Virus record (IMG/VR): IMGVR_UViG_3300033153_007823
Span: 1-32,361 of that record
Length of the DNA stretch: 32,361 nucleotides
Reading direction: 5' to 3' (one strand)
Origin: a virus
Part shown: positions 2,115 to 19,274 of the stretch, piece after piece
How the letters are laid out: every line of letters starts with the position of its first letter
How positions within the stretch are numbered: position 1 is the stretch's first letter
The notes under the pieces: model-generated
What the model was told of the DNA's origin: nothing
What the model saw: only the letters and a program-made list of their open reading frames with translations
The model's database searches: none
Position numbers and translations under genes: made by a program

Positions 2115-2496
2115 AGGAAAGAGGATTTTGGTGTCTAGTGCGAAGGCGAAAGGAAGACATCTTCAGAGGATGGTAGCGGCCAAGATCTCGGAGTTGACGG
2201 GTCTTGCCTATGGAAAAGATGAGCAGATTGCCCCTCGGGAAATGGGCCAGAGTGGGGTGGATATCCGTCTAGTCGCCGATGCTAAGTATCGTTTTCCCTG
2301 GTCGGTGGAGTGTAAATTCCAGGAGACTTGGTCGGTTCCCGCTTGGATTCAGCAGGCCGAGACTAATAGAATGCCGGGCACCGACTGGCTGTTGGTGATG
2401 AAGAAGGCGCGAAGGGATCCCGTGGTTGTTCTTGATATGGATGTTTTCTTTGATCTCCTCCGCCTTATACCCGGCGAAAAGAAGGGGCGCAAATAA
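2107..2496 (+). CDS. PD-(D/E)XK family endonuclease-like protein
   Basis: A 129-residue protein with the pattern of a small PD-(D/E)XK nuclease: SGVDIRLV (D52), then VECKF (E68-x-K70), then a Gln (Q83) in a helix, preceded by an N-terminal helix with Glu. This order resembles Holliday-junction resolvase/RecB-type nuclease folds in phages. The frame extends upstream to 2002, but that part overlaps the exonuclease gene, so ATG 2107 (overlap 8 bases) is the sensible start. Next to recombinase, exonuclease and SbcCD-like genes it could resolve branched DNA, but the substrate is inference. The last base of its stop is the first base of the next gene's ATG. Confidence 0.72.
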   Translation: MPKGKRILVSSAKAKGRHLQRMVAAKISELTGLAYGKDEQIAPREMGQSGVDIRLVADAKYRFPWSVECKFQETWSVPAWIQQAETNRMPGTDWLLVMKKARRDPVVVLDMDVFFDLLRLIPGEKKGRK

Positions 2497-3560
2497 TGAT
2501 CGAATCAATCAGGATCAAGAATTTCCAAAGCCATGAGGATACCATTCTCCGTTTCTCTAGCGGCGTTAATGTGATAGTGGGGTCCTCCGATTCGGGCAAG
2601 TCCGCCATATTGAGGGCGATGATCTGGGTGGCACAGAATCGACCTTCGGGGGACTCCTTCATGTCCTGGGGTCAGAAGGAAACCTCCGTAACTCTAGGTG
2701 TCGACCATCTCCAGGTAACACGATCGAAAGGGTCTAGTAAGAACGAATACCGGATCGAAGGGCAAGAAATGGACCAGGTTTTCACTGCCTTTGGCCAAGA
2801 TGTGCCCGATGATATATCCCGAATTTTGGGAATTGAGGATCTCAATATCCAAAGACAGATGGATGCCCCCTTTCTGCTCTCTGATTCTTCGGGGGAGGTT
2901 GCCCGGCGGTTAAATTCTGTGGTCAATTTAGACAAGATTCACACCAGCCTGTCCAATATCGCCGCAATTAAGAGGGAAGAGACACGCGAATTGTCTTTTG
3001 TGGAAGAAGAACAGTCTAGGGCGCAAGAAGAGACAAGACAATATTCTTGGATTCCGGACTTCGAGGCCAAGTTAGGCGTAGCCTCTCACGCGTTCCAGTC
3101 ACTGAAAGGCGTCTCGCTCAAACTATCAGAATCCAGATCCTTGTTAGATGACTGGAGAGGTTTGGCCACTCAGTTGGAAAAATTCGACGAAACAGAGCGC
3201 CTCGCTGCAAGAGTGGACAAAGCCATGTCTCATCTTAGCCATATCGAGCGCACCAGAAAACAGTTAGACGAGATCAATGCATTAATACAAGAATGGACCA
3301 GGGCGAAGAATCAAAAGAAAAAACTGACCCACATATCCCGGCTCAAGGACAAGATCGAAAAGGCTCTTGGGATCCACAGTGAACTGAAACAGGTTATCCG
3401 GAAAGAAAAGCAAGCCACTTCCCTGATCTATCAGATGGAAGAAGTTAGTGATGATCTACGGGTGGCGAAAACTGACTACGAGCAAGCTAGTCGGGAGTTT
3501 GATGAGAAGATGAGCGGTCTTCGCGAATGCCCCTTGTGCGGTTCGGTTTTGGAGGCTTAG
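2496..3560 (+). CDS. SbcC/Rad50-like ATPase, N-terminal half ending at a zinc hook
   Basis: A 354-residue protein matching only the N-terminal half of an SMC-type Rad50/SbcC/gp46 ATPase. It starts with the family's typical opening strand (SIRIKNFQSHED) and a Walker A loop GSSDSGKS at about residues 29-36. A globular lobe follows to about residue 150, and then a long charged, helical coiled-coil arm. It ends with ECPLCG, a CxxC zinc-hook motif at residues 345-348, only six residues from the stop. There is no ABC signature, Walker B or H-loop; those are in a separate gene at 4778-5404. The SbcD-like nuclease gene starts one base after its stop. I infer that the two half-proteins assemble into one ATPase head. 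Confidence 0.88.
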   Translation: MIESIRIKNFQSHEDTILRFSSGVNVIVGSSDSGKSAILRAMIWVAQNRPSGDSFMSWGQKETSVTLGVDHLQVTRSKGSSKNEYRIEGQEMDQVFTAFGQDVPDDISRILGIEDLNIQRQMDAPFLLSDSSGEVARRLNSVVNLDKIHTSLSNIAAIKREETRELSFVEEEQSRAQEETRQYSWIPDFEAKLGVASHAFQSLKGVSLKLSESRSLLDDWRGLATQLEKFDETERLAARVDKAMSHLSHIERTRKQLDEINALIQEWTRAKNQKKKLTHISRLKDKIEKALGIHSELKQVIRKEKQATSLIYQMEEVSDDLRVAKTDYEQASREFDEKMSGLRECPLCGSVLEA

Positions 3561-3561
3561 G

Positions 3562-4527
3562 ATGAGGAAAAGGACCAGACGGACTAAGCAGAGTGAGATT
3601 GGAAGAGTGGATTGTATTTTCACAGCAGACTGGCACTTGCGCCTATCCACACCATCATGCAGAACGGATGAAGACTTCTTTTCCAACCAGATTTCTAAAG
3701 TTGCCCAAATCTTGGAGTTGTCTCGTGAGAATGGTCATTGTCCCGTCGTGGTCGCAGGGGACGTGGGCCATAGGCCCCAATGGGAAAATCCCCTCCTTGC
3801 CGAAGTTCTCATTTTGCTAGGGGGGCACAGGAAAGTTCCCCTTTGTCTTCTTCCCGGTCAGCACGATCTGCCTTACCATGTCTTGGCCCATTGGTGGAAA
3901 GGGGGTTTAGGTGTTTTGAACACCCTTTCGAATGTCTCGGTCTTCCATAATCCGGGACAGGTAAGAGTATACCTCGGTTATGGCCTTCATTTCTTCCCTT
4001 TCGGTTGCGAGATTCGTCCCCCGAAGGTCGAAAGCGGCAATCATAGACGAGTAGCGATAGCGCACACAATGGTATATAAGGGGAGGCCCGAATGGCCGGG
4101 GCAAGACAAACAAGGAAACACAGCCAAGAACCTCCTGAAAAGTCATCCTGAGTACGACCTGATCGTCACCGGCGACAACCACGTGACGTTCGTGGAGACT
4201 TACGAGGACAGACTCTTGGTCAATCCAGGATCTTTATTGAGGGCGACAGCGGATCAGGCCAACCACCGACCTTGTGTTTTCTTGTGGGATGCCGAGAGGA
4301 ACCAAGTGATGCAAAAATTCTTAAAGGTCAAGAAAGGAGTGATAGAGACGGAACGAGTGGAGAGGGAACAGAAACGGAATGAAAGAATTGAGGCGTTCGT
4401 CGCCCGACTGGGTCAGCAGGAGAAGGACGTGAGCCTGTCCTTCGAAGACAACCTCAAGAAGTACCTATCAGAGAACAAGGTGCCCAAATCAGTTTCCAGA
4501 AAGATCTGGAACGCAGTGGAGGACTAA
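3562..4527 (+). CDS. SbcD/Mre11-like metallophosphoesterase nuclease
   Basis: A 321-residue calcineurin-type phosphoesterase, the likely nuclease partner of the split SbcC-like ATPase. Motifs in order: FTADWHLR (D23, H25), VVAGDVGH (D67), LPGQHD (Q100-H101-D102), IAHTMV, and VTGDNHVTF. The usual GNHD is GQHD and the usual GHxH is GDNH, so two metal-site positions differ from cellular Mre11. A Lys/Glu-rich C-terminal segment follows the nuclease core and could contact the ATPase. By family knowledge the complex would process double-strand ends. The gene sits between the two ATPase half-genes, with one- and two-base gaps, so stoichiometric co-translation is likely. Confidence 0.9.
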   Translation: MRKRTRRTKQSEIGRVDCIFTADWHLRLSTPSCRTDEDFFSNQISKVAQILELSRENGHCPVVVAGDVGHRPQWENPLLAEVLILLGGHRKVPLCLLPGQHDLPYHVLAHWWKGGLGVLNTLSNVSVFHNPGQVRVYLGYGLHFFPFGCEIRPPKVESGNHRRVAIAHTMVYKGRPEWPGQDKQGNTAKNLLKSHPEYDLIVTGDNHVTFVETYEDRLLVNPGSLLRATADQANHRPCVFLWDAERNQVMQKFLKVKKGVIETERVEREQKRNERIEAFVARLGQQEKDVSLSFEDNLKKYLSENKVPKSVSRKIWNAVED

Positions 4528-4529
4528 AA

Positions 4530-4781
4530 ATGGATCAGATCGCCGACGAATTGATCAGGATGAAGAAGAAAGTCCAGAAAAGCCTCATCGAGAAGGCCGA
4601 ACTGGAAGGCCGTCTCAAGGGAGTGAAAGACCAAGCCAAGGAGAGGTTTGGCGTGAACAACATCACTGAACTCAAGGAACTCCGGAACCAATTAGAAGAA
4701 CAGGTAGACAAATTGGTCGATGAGGTGGAAGGAATGGTCGAGGAACTGAAGGAAGAATTCGAAAGGATCCAACAGCCATGA
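4530..4781 (+). CDS. Small coiled-coil protein between SbcD and SbcC C-half
   Basis: An 83-residue protein that is almost entirely heptad-like charged helix (KKKVQKSLIEKAELEGRL; later NQLEEQVDKLVDEVEGM) with one short break near FGVNNITE. It has no catalytic motif. It starts two bases after the SbcD-like stop, and its own stop overlaps the start of the SbcC C-terminal half (ATGA at 4778-4781). From position and composition I infer that it is an accessory arm or adaptor for the split Rad50-like complex, perhaps supplying part of the coiled coil that is shorter than usual in the two half-genes. The gene is clearly real from packing; the function is unproven. Confidence 0.75.
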   Translation: MDQIADELIRMKKKVQKSLIEKAELEGRLKGVKDQAKERFGVNNITELKELRNQLEEQVDKLVDEVEGMVEELKEEFERIQQP

Positions 4782-5404
4782 ATCTCGAAACGGAATTGAA
4801 GGAGCTGAGGACCGCCCTGGAGCAAGAAAAAGGGAAGTTCGCCGAAATACAACGCCGCCTGGACCAGCTTCGAGACCGAGCCGTGGGGCTGGAAAGAGAA
4901 GTGATGAGAACCCTAAAGGCCCAGGCCATCCTACAACAAGTGGCCCAGAAGACTCAACAGGAACTCCAGTACCGAATATCTGAGTTGTGCTCCTTGGCCT
5001 TGTATGGAGTGTTCGAGGAGCCATACGAGTTGGTACTGGAATTCGTGGTCCGAAGAGGGAAGACGGAAGCCGATATCTATTTCTTGAGGGATGGGGAGAG
5101 GGTTGACCCCTTGACAGCTGCAGGGGGAGGAGTGGTGGATGTGGCATCCTTCGCCCTACGGATGGCTCTGTGGACATTGAAACAACCCAGGAGCCGCAAC
5201 GTGATCCTCCTCGATGAGCCGTTCCGGTTCGTGTCCCGGGAACTGCAGCCCAAGGCCAGTGCAATGCTCAAGGAACTATCCAGAAGGCTAGGCGTACAGT
5301 TCATCATGGTTAGCCATAGCACCGATCTGGTCGCGGCGGCAGACAAAGTGTTCGGATGCGCCCAGAACTCAAAAGGAATCAGCATCGTCAAAGAAGCGGA
5401 ATGA
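4778..5404 (+). CDS. SbcC/Rad50-like ATPase, C-terminal half
   Basis: A 208-residue protein carrying the C-terminal half of an SMC-type ATPase. An N-terminal coiled coil (about residues 1-65) leads into an ATPase lobe. The signature-like segment is AAGGGVVDVASFALRMAL (about 114-131), followed by Walker B NVILLDEPF (D146, E147), a D-loop region near SRELQPKAS, and the switch His in IMVSHSTD (H180). Walker A is absent; it is in the gene at 2496-3560. The two proteins together contain the full ABC motif set in the correct order. The start overlaps the coiled-coil gene by four bases. The ATPase motifs are clear; physical assembly with the other half is inference. Confidence 0.88.
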   Translation: MNLETELKELRTALEQEKGKFAEIQRRLDQLRDRAVGLEREVMRTLKAQAILQQVAQKTQQELQYRISELCSLALYGVFEEPYELVLEFVVRRGKTEADIYFLRDGERVDPLTAAGGGVVDVASFALRMALWTLKQPRSRNVILLDEPFRFVSRELQPKASAMLKELSRRLGVQFIMVSHSTDLVAAADKVFGCAQNSKGISIVKEAE

Positions 5405-5760
5405 TGCCCACCTCTCCCCGCATGATAGGCCGCTGCGAACACTGTGGCCGAACGTACCCGAAAACCTCCTCCCGTTGTCGGTTCTGTCCCCATCCCGCCT
5501 GTCAACGCGACCGGCAGGAAAAGAAGAAAGCCCGCCTCCGCCAATACTCCCTCCAATGGCGAAGCCCCCGGCGCGCGAGAACAAAGAAACGCCTCCGCCC
5601 CTGCCGCTCCAAGGACCTCCTCGGCTACAGCCACCCCGAGTGCGACGGCTACATTCACAATGACAATTGGTGGTTCTGCTCCCTGTGTATTACAAAGCGA
5701 AATGAGGTCCTGGCCGACAAAGACGAAAGGACGGACGGGGAGTACCTCTTCTGGACATAA
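5401..5760 (+). CDS. Zinc-ribbon-like basic protein at the operon end
   Basis: About 119 residues from ATG 5401, which overlaps the previous stop as ATGA; the frame stays open to 5356 but that would overlap the ATPase gene. It has paired cysteines near the N terminus (CEHC then CRFCPHPAC), a strongly basic middle (RQEKKKARLRQ and RRARTKKRLR) and a late CSLC pair, as in a small zinc-binding nucleic-acid-binding protein. The C terminus is acidic. It is the last gene before the structural-operon promoter, so a role in switching to late transcription is possible, but nothing in the sequence proves it. I do not recognise a named family. Confidence 0.65.
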   Translation: MMPTSPRMIGRCEHCGRTYPKTSSRCRFCPHPACQRDRQEKKKARLRQYSLQWRSPRRARTKKRLRPCRSKDLLGYSHPECDGYIHNDNWWFCSLCITKRNEVLADKDERTDGEYLFWT

Positions 5761-18975: not shown

Positions 18976-19274
18976 CTCTGGCCCTCGGAAAGACCGTGGA
19001 TGAATTATTGTCGAATATTTCAGCGAGGGAACTCTTAGAGTGGAGGGCCTACAGTATGGTGGAGCCTTTTGGGATGGAGGAGCACTACCGAAGGACGGGG
19101 ATCATCGCTTCTATCCTCGCCAATGTCCACAGGAAGAGGGGCTCCTCGCCGTTTAAGGTCGATGATTTTGTGCCCGAGCGTTACAAATACCCTTCCACTA
19201 AGAAACAGAAACTACAGGAAATAAAATCTATTCTTTCCTCGTTGGCGACGAGAAAGGTCAAACGGAATGCTTGA
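18939..19274 (+). CDS. Tail assembly chaperone T-type extension (via -1 frameshift)
   Basis: The -1 frame relative to the previous gene is open from 18933 and continues through RLALALGKTVDELLSNIS, then ARELLEWRAYSMVEPFG, to the stop at 19274. The LALALGKT-ELL-RELxEWxAY pattern is the one expected for the T half of GT tail chaperones. The conserved part begins upstream of any good start: the first candidate is GTG 18996 or ATG 19000, both without a good Shine-Dalgarno sequence. Translation by frameshifting is therefore more likely than independent initiation. It overlaps the tape measure start by eight bases. Confidence 0.75.
   Translation, partial: RRRPGRRFLFRLALALGKTVDELLSNISARELLEWRAYSMVEPFGMEEHYRRTGIIASILANVHRKRGSSPFKVDDFVPERYKYPSTKKQKLQEIKSILSSLATRKVKRNA

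Follow-up and report, generated by a model that had tools for sequence, protein, structure and literature searches.

A probable phage Mre11-Rad50 complex with a natural break of the Rad50 chain at the zinc hook

We analysed the 32,361-base viral record IMGVR_UViG_3300033153_007823 of IMG/VR (the window, hereafter), from the letters of which open reading frames (ORFs) and motifs were read. Both the ORF calls and the sequence of the window show four consecutive genes, all on the + strand, which we call A, B, C and D. Genes A and D encode proteins homologous to the two halves of Rad50/SbcC, and B and C lie between them:

2496..3560, + strand: gene A, Rad50/SbcC N-terminal half, comprising the N-lobe with Walker A, the ascending arm and a C-terminal zinc hook (354 amino acids, aa)
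3562..4527, + strand: gene B, Mre11/SbcD-like phosphoesterase, whose C-terminal region stands where Mre11 has its Rad50-binding helices (321 aa)
4530..4781, + strand: gene C, conserved helix-loop-helix coiled-coil protein (83 aa)
4778..5404, + strand: gene D, Rad50/SbcC C-terminal half, comprising a descending helix (residues 3-78) and the C-lobe (208 aa)

A starts within the stop codon of the preceding gene (TAATG), B begins 1 base after A, C begins 2 bases after B, and C and D overlap by 4 bases, suggesting that A-B-C-D are read as a single operon. A first-pass annotation of the window had described a protein with Walker A and a coiled arm that stops six residues after a CxxC, followed by a nuclease gene and an 83-residue coiled-coil gene and then by a second Rad50-like half; the ORF and the CPLC of A, together with the positions of B and C, were confirmed in the sequence.

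Protein A, whose C-terminus reads ...ECPLCGSVLEA, has the following features:

2580..2603, + strand: Walker A of A, GSSDSGKS, residues 29-36 (G29, G34 and K35 invariant in 60 homologues)
3024..3446, + strand: three 47-residue repeats in the arm of A, residues 177-223, 224-270 and 271-317
3528..3539, + strand: zinc hook CPLC of A, residues 345-348, six residues from the stop (both Cys invariant in the 60-sequence alignment)

The protein matched Pfam AAA_23 (3.6e-13) and the PHROGs family phrog_16465, labelled 'exonuclease' (7.8e-38). In the NCBIfam Rad50 models the N-terminus matched A and the C-terminus matched D; for model NF003034, positions 3-49 aligned with A and positions 670-876 of 878 with D. 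When a profile of 60 A proteins was compared with solved structures, it matched Rad50 (5f3w, 1.8e-16; 1ii8_A, 4.9e-14; 1f2t_A, 1.3e-12). The AlphaFold2 model of A (predicted local distance difference test, pLDDT, 88; predicted template modelling score, pTM, 0.45) consisted of the N-lobe, a helix at residues 145-182, a break, a helix at residues 185-340 and then the hook, and its fold matched 1f2u_A (2.7e-7), 1ii8_A and 3qkr_A. The CxxC is present at the apex of the arm and is predicted from its sequence to bind zinc. It was found 2-25 residues ahead of the stop in 191 of 193 complete A proteins, the two without a terminal CxxC being those of Microbacterium phage Magritte and of the outgroup, Achromobacter phage JWF.

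The arm of A is built of repeats. Among all lags tested in the pooled A arms, similarity was strongest at lag 47 (z = 29.9 against shuffled arms), followed by lag 7 (z = 21.8) and lag 94 (z = 15.2); note that the shuffles preserve composition only and the sequences are related, so that these z scores are a description and not a probability. A stronger argument for the repeat comes from the exact spacing: an ungapped 47-position profile detected 136 repeats in 57 of 58 A sequences, and successive spacings were exactly 47 in 71 of 79 cases, as judged from the sequences. Arm lengths fell into groups of about 130-140, 169-194, 209-229 and 278-298 residues, and the distance from the PFL motif of the N-lobe to the CxxC fell into groups at 171, 218 and 261. 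The arms thus vary in steps of roughly 47 residues, while the lengths of C and D are constant; arm length was not significantly correlated with the aligned length of C (rho = -0.15, P = 0.12) or with the length of D (rho = -0.09, P = 0.36). C and D therefore cannot be explained simply as a descending arm that matches A. In distant A arms the repeat period was 44 (the uncultured phage LR745208) or 38 (Tunturiibacter phage Tunturi_5), and there were prolines in every unit. This modular 47-residue arm, the length of which is independent of the other subunits, is the most surprising part of the locus and was absent from the first-pass annotation.

Protein D carries the motifs AAGGGVVDVASFALR, NVILLDEPF and FIMVSHS, which correspond to the following features:

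5117..5131, + strand: variant ATP-binding cassette (ABC) signature AAGGG of D, residues 114-118 (SGGG in most homologues)
5201..5218, + strand: Walker B of D, VILLDE, residues 142-147 (D146 and E147 invariant)
5315..5317, + strand: switch His of D, H180 (at least 90% conserved)

The first-pass annotation had assigned the signature, Walker B and the switch His to this protein. The latter two stand, and the signature, a variant, aligns with SGGE of Rad50, but the window reads AGGG there, which is neither LSGGE nor the SGGG of most homologues. Protein D matched Pfam SMC_N at 8.7e-5, below the curated cut-off, and PHROGs phrog_15167, labelled 'ATPase' (5.4e-28). A profile of 60 D proteins matched the C-terminal halves of Rad50 (3aux, 2.8e-16; 3qkr_B, 1.7e-15; 1ii8_B, 6.1e-15; 1f2t_B, 2.7e-13), and the AlphaFold2 model (pLDDT 94), a single helix at residues 3-78 followed by the C-lobe, matched the folds of 1f2u_B (1.6e-8), 1ii8_B and 3qkr_B. 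The models of A and D matched chain A and chain B, respectively, of 1f2u, 1f2t, 1ii8, 3qkr and 9a9j. These entries keep the halves as separate chains, and a two-chain head is therefore physically possible, the head tolerating the cut. Neither A nor D holds the motifs of the opposite half. A regular-expression search for a P-loop in D gave five matches across the family, all of which were the helix adjoining Walker B (...SLGKT/S...) and were rejected. Relatives of D were sought in bacterial genomes in one scan, in which only an ABC transporter was found.

To describe the recurrence of the split, we scanned viral contigs with D, which gave four further loci and one near-identical locus, and with A, which matched 326 contigs, the best 80 of the 326 being used; three more scans with other members of the A family raised the total to 213 distinct A loci. 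Short motifs, mainly from the N-terminal lobe and in one case spanning the hook, served as the scan patterns, and single-chain relatives would therefore have been caught too. Note that ranking by likeness to the whole of A favours the same architecture, although one scan listed 74 of 74 matches, down to 25% identity. Counts were made over the 105 loci that have a complete A and at least 5 kb downstream. All four genes were present in 99 of them, and the order A-B-C-D on one strand, a search for which the first-pass annotation had proposed, was found in 96; in locus L057, one of the others, D lies elsewhere on the contig. Every locus has two ORFs, and no ORF matching both A and D was found except the SbcC of Achromobacter phage JWF, a distant, ordinary single chain of 670 aa that served as the outgroup. 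The 192 complete A proteins formed 175 clusters at 70% identity and 60 at 40%, indicating that the A family is old and diverse, and the recurrence of the split excludes chance, frameshift and assembly error.

The arrangement also occurs in complete phage genomes, in agreement with the first-pass annotation, which had placed similar arrangements in other phages. A, B and D were all present in Magritte, LR745208, vB_BboS-125, Mvi-JY20 and Tunturi_5. In Microcystis phage Mvi-JY20 (PP438412) the genes follow the order A-B-C-D and are all labelled hypothetical, and in Bacillus phage vB_BboS-125 (NC_048735) the order is A, an AP2-domain gene, C, D, a single small gene and B. The Mre11-like B gene of the latter, with 326 codons, is unannotated in the record (NC_048735.1 22423-23403; locus L007). 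In LR745208, a 485-kb phage, A, B, a C-like ORF, a sliding-clamp-like gene and D lie inside 8.3 kb, and A terminates in a CPVC hook; this genome has all four genes if the C-like ORF is counted. The gene between the C-like ORF and D (457123-458256; locus L112) resembles a DNA sliding clamp by eye. The genes are scattered in Magritte (A, B and D; locus L009). In the 308-kb genome of Tunturi_5, D is at 19071 on the + strand and A and B are at 127624 and 124535 on the - strand, so that A and D sit on opposite strands, some 108 kb from each other; the C-terminus of A reads LCGKCGDPISKSAA.

Protein B matched Pfam Metallophos (1.1e-5), and its profile matched the Mre11 nuclease domain among solved structures, with values for 4hd0 and 1ii7 in the range of 4.6e-10 (4hd0) to 8.2e-10. 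In the alignment D23, H25, D67, H101, H168 and H207 were invariant. Two metal-ligand motifs of the window differ from the canonical Mre11 motifs, GNHD and GHxH:

3856..3867, + strand: GQHD in B, the metal ligand Asn of GNHD being replaced by Gln
4171..4182, + strand: GDNH in B, the metal ligand His of GHxH being replaced by Asp

Over 170 distinct B proteins, Gln occurred with Asp in 76, Asn with Asp in 48 and Asn with His in 39; the Gln form was never paired with canonical GHxH. From these sequences, a change from His to Asp preceding that from Asn to Gln is suggested, in a count that ignores kinship.

Gene C was found in 101 of the 105 loci, and its profile is specific: in loci with A and D, 139 of 149 matches were on the strand of D and less than 1 kb upstream of it. 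Among the three pairs of adjacent genes, C and D lie closest together (median gap -1), and in 88 of 147 cases they are within 30 bases of each other. In the alignment, C consists of two heptad helices; the loop that connects them, [FWY]-G ... C-x-[TS]-x-x-E-A, takes insertions, and a near-invariant Gly (97%) sits in the first helix. The protein gave a weak PHROGs match (phrog_11953, 6e-5) and only generic coiled-coil matches among solved structures; no catalytic motif was seen in C, and no natural fusion of C to A, B or D, which would put C in the chain, was found. Our best guess is that C is a helical hairpin packed near the free N-terminus of D and the base of the arm.

The other neighbours on the upstream side belong to recombination, as assigned with Pfam and PHROGs:

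112-1245, + strand: UvsX/RecA-like recombinase
1242-2114, + strand: 5'-3' exonuclease
2002-2496, + strand: PDDEXK_15 / RusA-like nuclease

These genes lie directly upstream and count for a recombination role of the complex. Terminase genes come downstream of A-D, preceded by a 134-codon ORF with paired cysteines (C5HCH-like, weak) at 5356-5757 of the window, which overlaps the end of D.

Taken together, the sequences and models indicate that A-B-C-D very probably encode a phage Mre11-Rad50 (SbcCD) complex, the Rad50 chain of which is naturally cut at the zinc hook. The first-pass annotation had likewise proposed a single Rad50-like ATPase whose chain is divided at the hook apex between two genes on either side of an Mre11-like nuclease, and the complementary motifs, the profile matches to opposite halves, the model matches to opposite chains and the near-universal co-occurrence of the genes all support this. 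The two halves did not fall into unrelated folds, as the models matched opposite chains of the same Rad50 entries, and no homologue carried a full ATPase motif set in each half, the P-loop matches in D being spurious. Since Rad50/SbcC is encoded here as two halves, the ATPase must be put together from parts. We infer the following assembly and stoichiometry. A, with the N-lobe and Walker A, and D, with the C-lobe, signature, Walker B and switch His, would form each ATPase head; like those of Rad50, two heads would close on ATP. The helix of D, 76 residues long, would run along the base of the A arm, at an estimated position of A residues ~149-201, a register taken from the alignment to 1f2t_B and not from a model of the complex. 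Beyond the D helix, the A arm would continue alone for ~140 residues, in 47-residue segments, to its free C-terminal CxxC hook, and two A hooks may share one zinc ion, linking either two complexes or both arms of one dimer. B would dock on the base of the arm via its C-terminal helices and trim the ends of DNA, which would then recombine with the help of the UvsX-like recombinase encoded nearby, and C would be a helical-hairpin subunit, most likely bracing the D/arm region. T4 gp46/gp47 process DNA ends for recombination-dependent replication or repair, and by analogy a similar end processing is the natural reading of the present complex.

Several observations weigh against this picture. The path of the A arm is uncertain at the pTM of its model (0.45). 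The signature of the window lacks Ser, and the ATPase activity may differ from the canonical one; likewise, with two metal-ligand motifs of the window B changed, the nuclease activity may differ from the canonical one. The C profile had no match in LR745208, where C is a C-like ORF judged by eye, and none in Tunturi_5. The A-type half of Magritte (OR553905.1 93838-94890) is without any CxxC hook, its C-terminus being replaced. The cases of Magritte and Tunturi_5 suggest that neither the hook nor C is a strict requirement in distant lineages.

With regard to the arm, we tentatively consider a new SMC/Rad50-like architecture, possible though less likely true than not, in which the arm of each protomer would be a single segmented helix rather than an antiparallel coiled-coil hairpin. 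The number of 47-residue modules would set its length, the two A arms of a dimer would run side by side from the heads to a shared zinc hook made of two free C-termini, and the D helices and C hairpins would brace the base or each module. The antiparallel alternative, that C supplies the absent distal part of the descending arm, the chain being cut in three (A, C and D) that rebuild a normal arm, is suggested by the position of this coiled-coil protein directly before D and by the combined length of A, C and D (645 aa), which is near the 670 aa of the single-chain SbcC of phage JWF. However, the loop with an N-cap box in the middle of C tolerates insertions, so that C looks like a hairpin, and A arms of 130-298 residues were accompanied by no matching change in C or D. 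We regard this alternative as unlikely, and the suggestion of the first-pass annotation that C is perhaps a third arm, at least a simple one, fares no better, as the length of C does not scale with the arm. It is somewhat easier, though still doubtful, to imagine that A and D form the ATPase head and that C stands outside the machine, as an unrelated small phage gene, such as a regulator, travelling with D. The lack of a catalytic motif and of any fusion to A, B or D, the independence of C from arm length and the missing match in Tunturi_5 would fit with this, whereas the presence of C in nearly all loci as the closest neighbour of D, its persistence in vB_BboS-125 and Mvi-JY20 (and as the C-like ORF in LR745208) and the heptads and near-invariant Gly, which suggest that C packs against another helix, would not.

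Two further explanations concern the locus as a whole. The altered ligands of B, with GQHD/GDxH in 76 and GNHD/GDxH in 48 of 170 proteins, could make B a DNA-binding or non-nucleolytic partner in a counter-defence or DNA-protection device, but Asp can bind metal, the remaining phosphoesterase residues of B are invariant and its neighbours are recombination genes, and we consider such a role improbable. Lastly, the split might be gene decay, a frameshift, an intein or an assembly artefact of one normal SbcC gene. We found nothing in favour of this, although homing nucleases do at times interrupt genes of phages and the AP2-domain gene between A and C in vB_BboS-125 is presumably of the homing type. 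It is hardly credible, because the same break position is found across the 192 complete A proteins in their 175 clusters, other genes lie between the halves, and the halves are far apart in Tunturi_5 and Magritte; frameshift, intein and assembly error of SbcC were ruled out by the recurrence.

In the literature, Mre11-Rad50 fusion proteins have been described, and a fused SbcDC without one NTPase segment was reported from Bacillus phage 0305phi8-36 (PMC3175470). The main text of the genome paper of vB_BboS-125 does not mention SbcC, Rad50 or a split (PMC6375668), and the parts of a jumbo-phage review that we consulted, in which SbcC and SbcD are near-universal in jumbo phages, do not note a split SbcC (PMC7824862). 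We found no description of a naturally split Rad50/SbcC in the open-access literature, subscription papers and preprints being outside the search. Rad50 and SMC proteins are understood as a single chain folding back at the hook or hinge. A large and diverse set of phages does without this continuity, and one of their two halves terminates in the hook. The arm of A, varying in discrete modules against a constant other half, would allow the purpose of the descending arm and of the hook to be tested directly, and a natural two-chain Rad50 is on offer for biochemistry. Hundreds of phage genes that currently go under the names 'exonuclease', 'ATPase' or 'chromosome segregation protein', or are listed as hypothetical, would also receive a corrected annotation.

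Compared with known systems, the locus resembles Rad50/SbcC and T4 gp46 in the N-lobe with Walker A, the C-lobe with Walker B and switch His, the helical arm, the CxxC hook and the Mre11-type partner; the B gene is adjacent in nearly all loci, and from the genes a complex with B is likely. It differs from them in that two genes are used, with the cut just past the hook and no covalent descending arm beyond D, and in the 47-residue-repeat arm, the extra subunit C and the signature SGGG/AGGG in place of LSGGE. B resembles Mre11/SbcD and T4 gp47 in its calcineurin-like phosphoesterase motifs and its profile match to 4hd0, although GQHD and GDNH replace GNHD and GHxH in many B proteins, including that of the window. 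The Mre11-Rad50 fusion of Mimivirus, R555, is likewise a viral rearrangement of the same two genes, but a fusion goes in the opposite direction (PMC3175470). The Rad50 crystal constructs of P. furiosus (1f2t, 1f2u, 1ii8 and 3qkr) share the two-chain head; these were made in the laboratory, whereas the split is natural here and the long arm and hook are kept on A. By this comparison, A-B-C-D is a system that would work like an Mre11-Rad50 complex, but it is not a strict single-chain member of Rad50/SbcC, where the two lobes, the two strands of the arm and a central hook all belong to one polypeptide.

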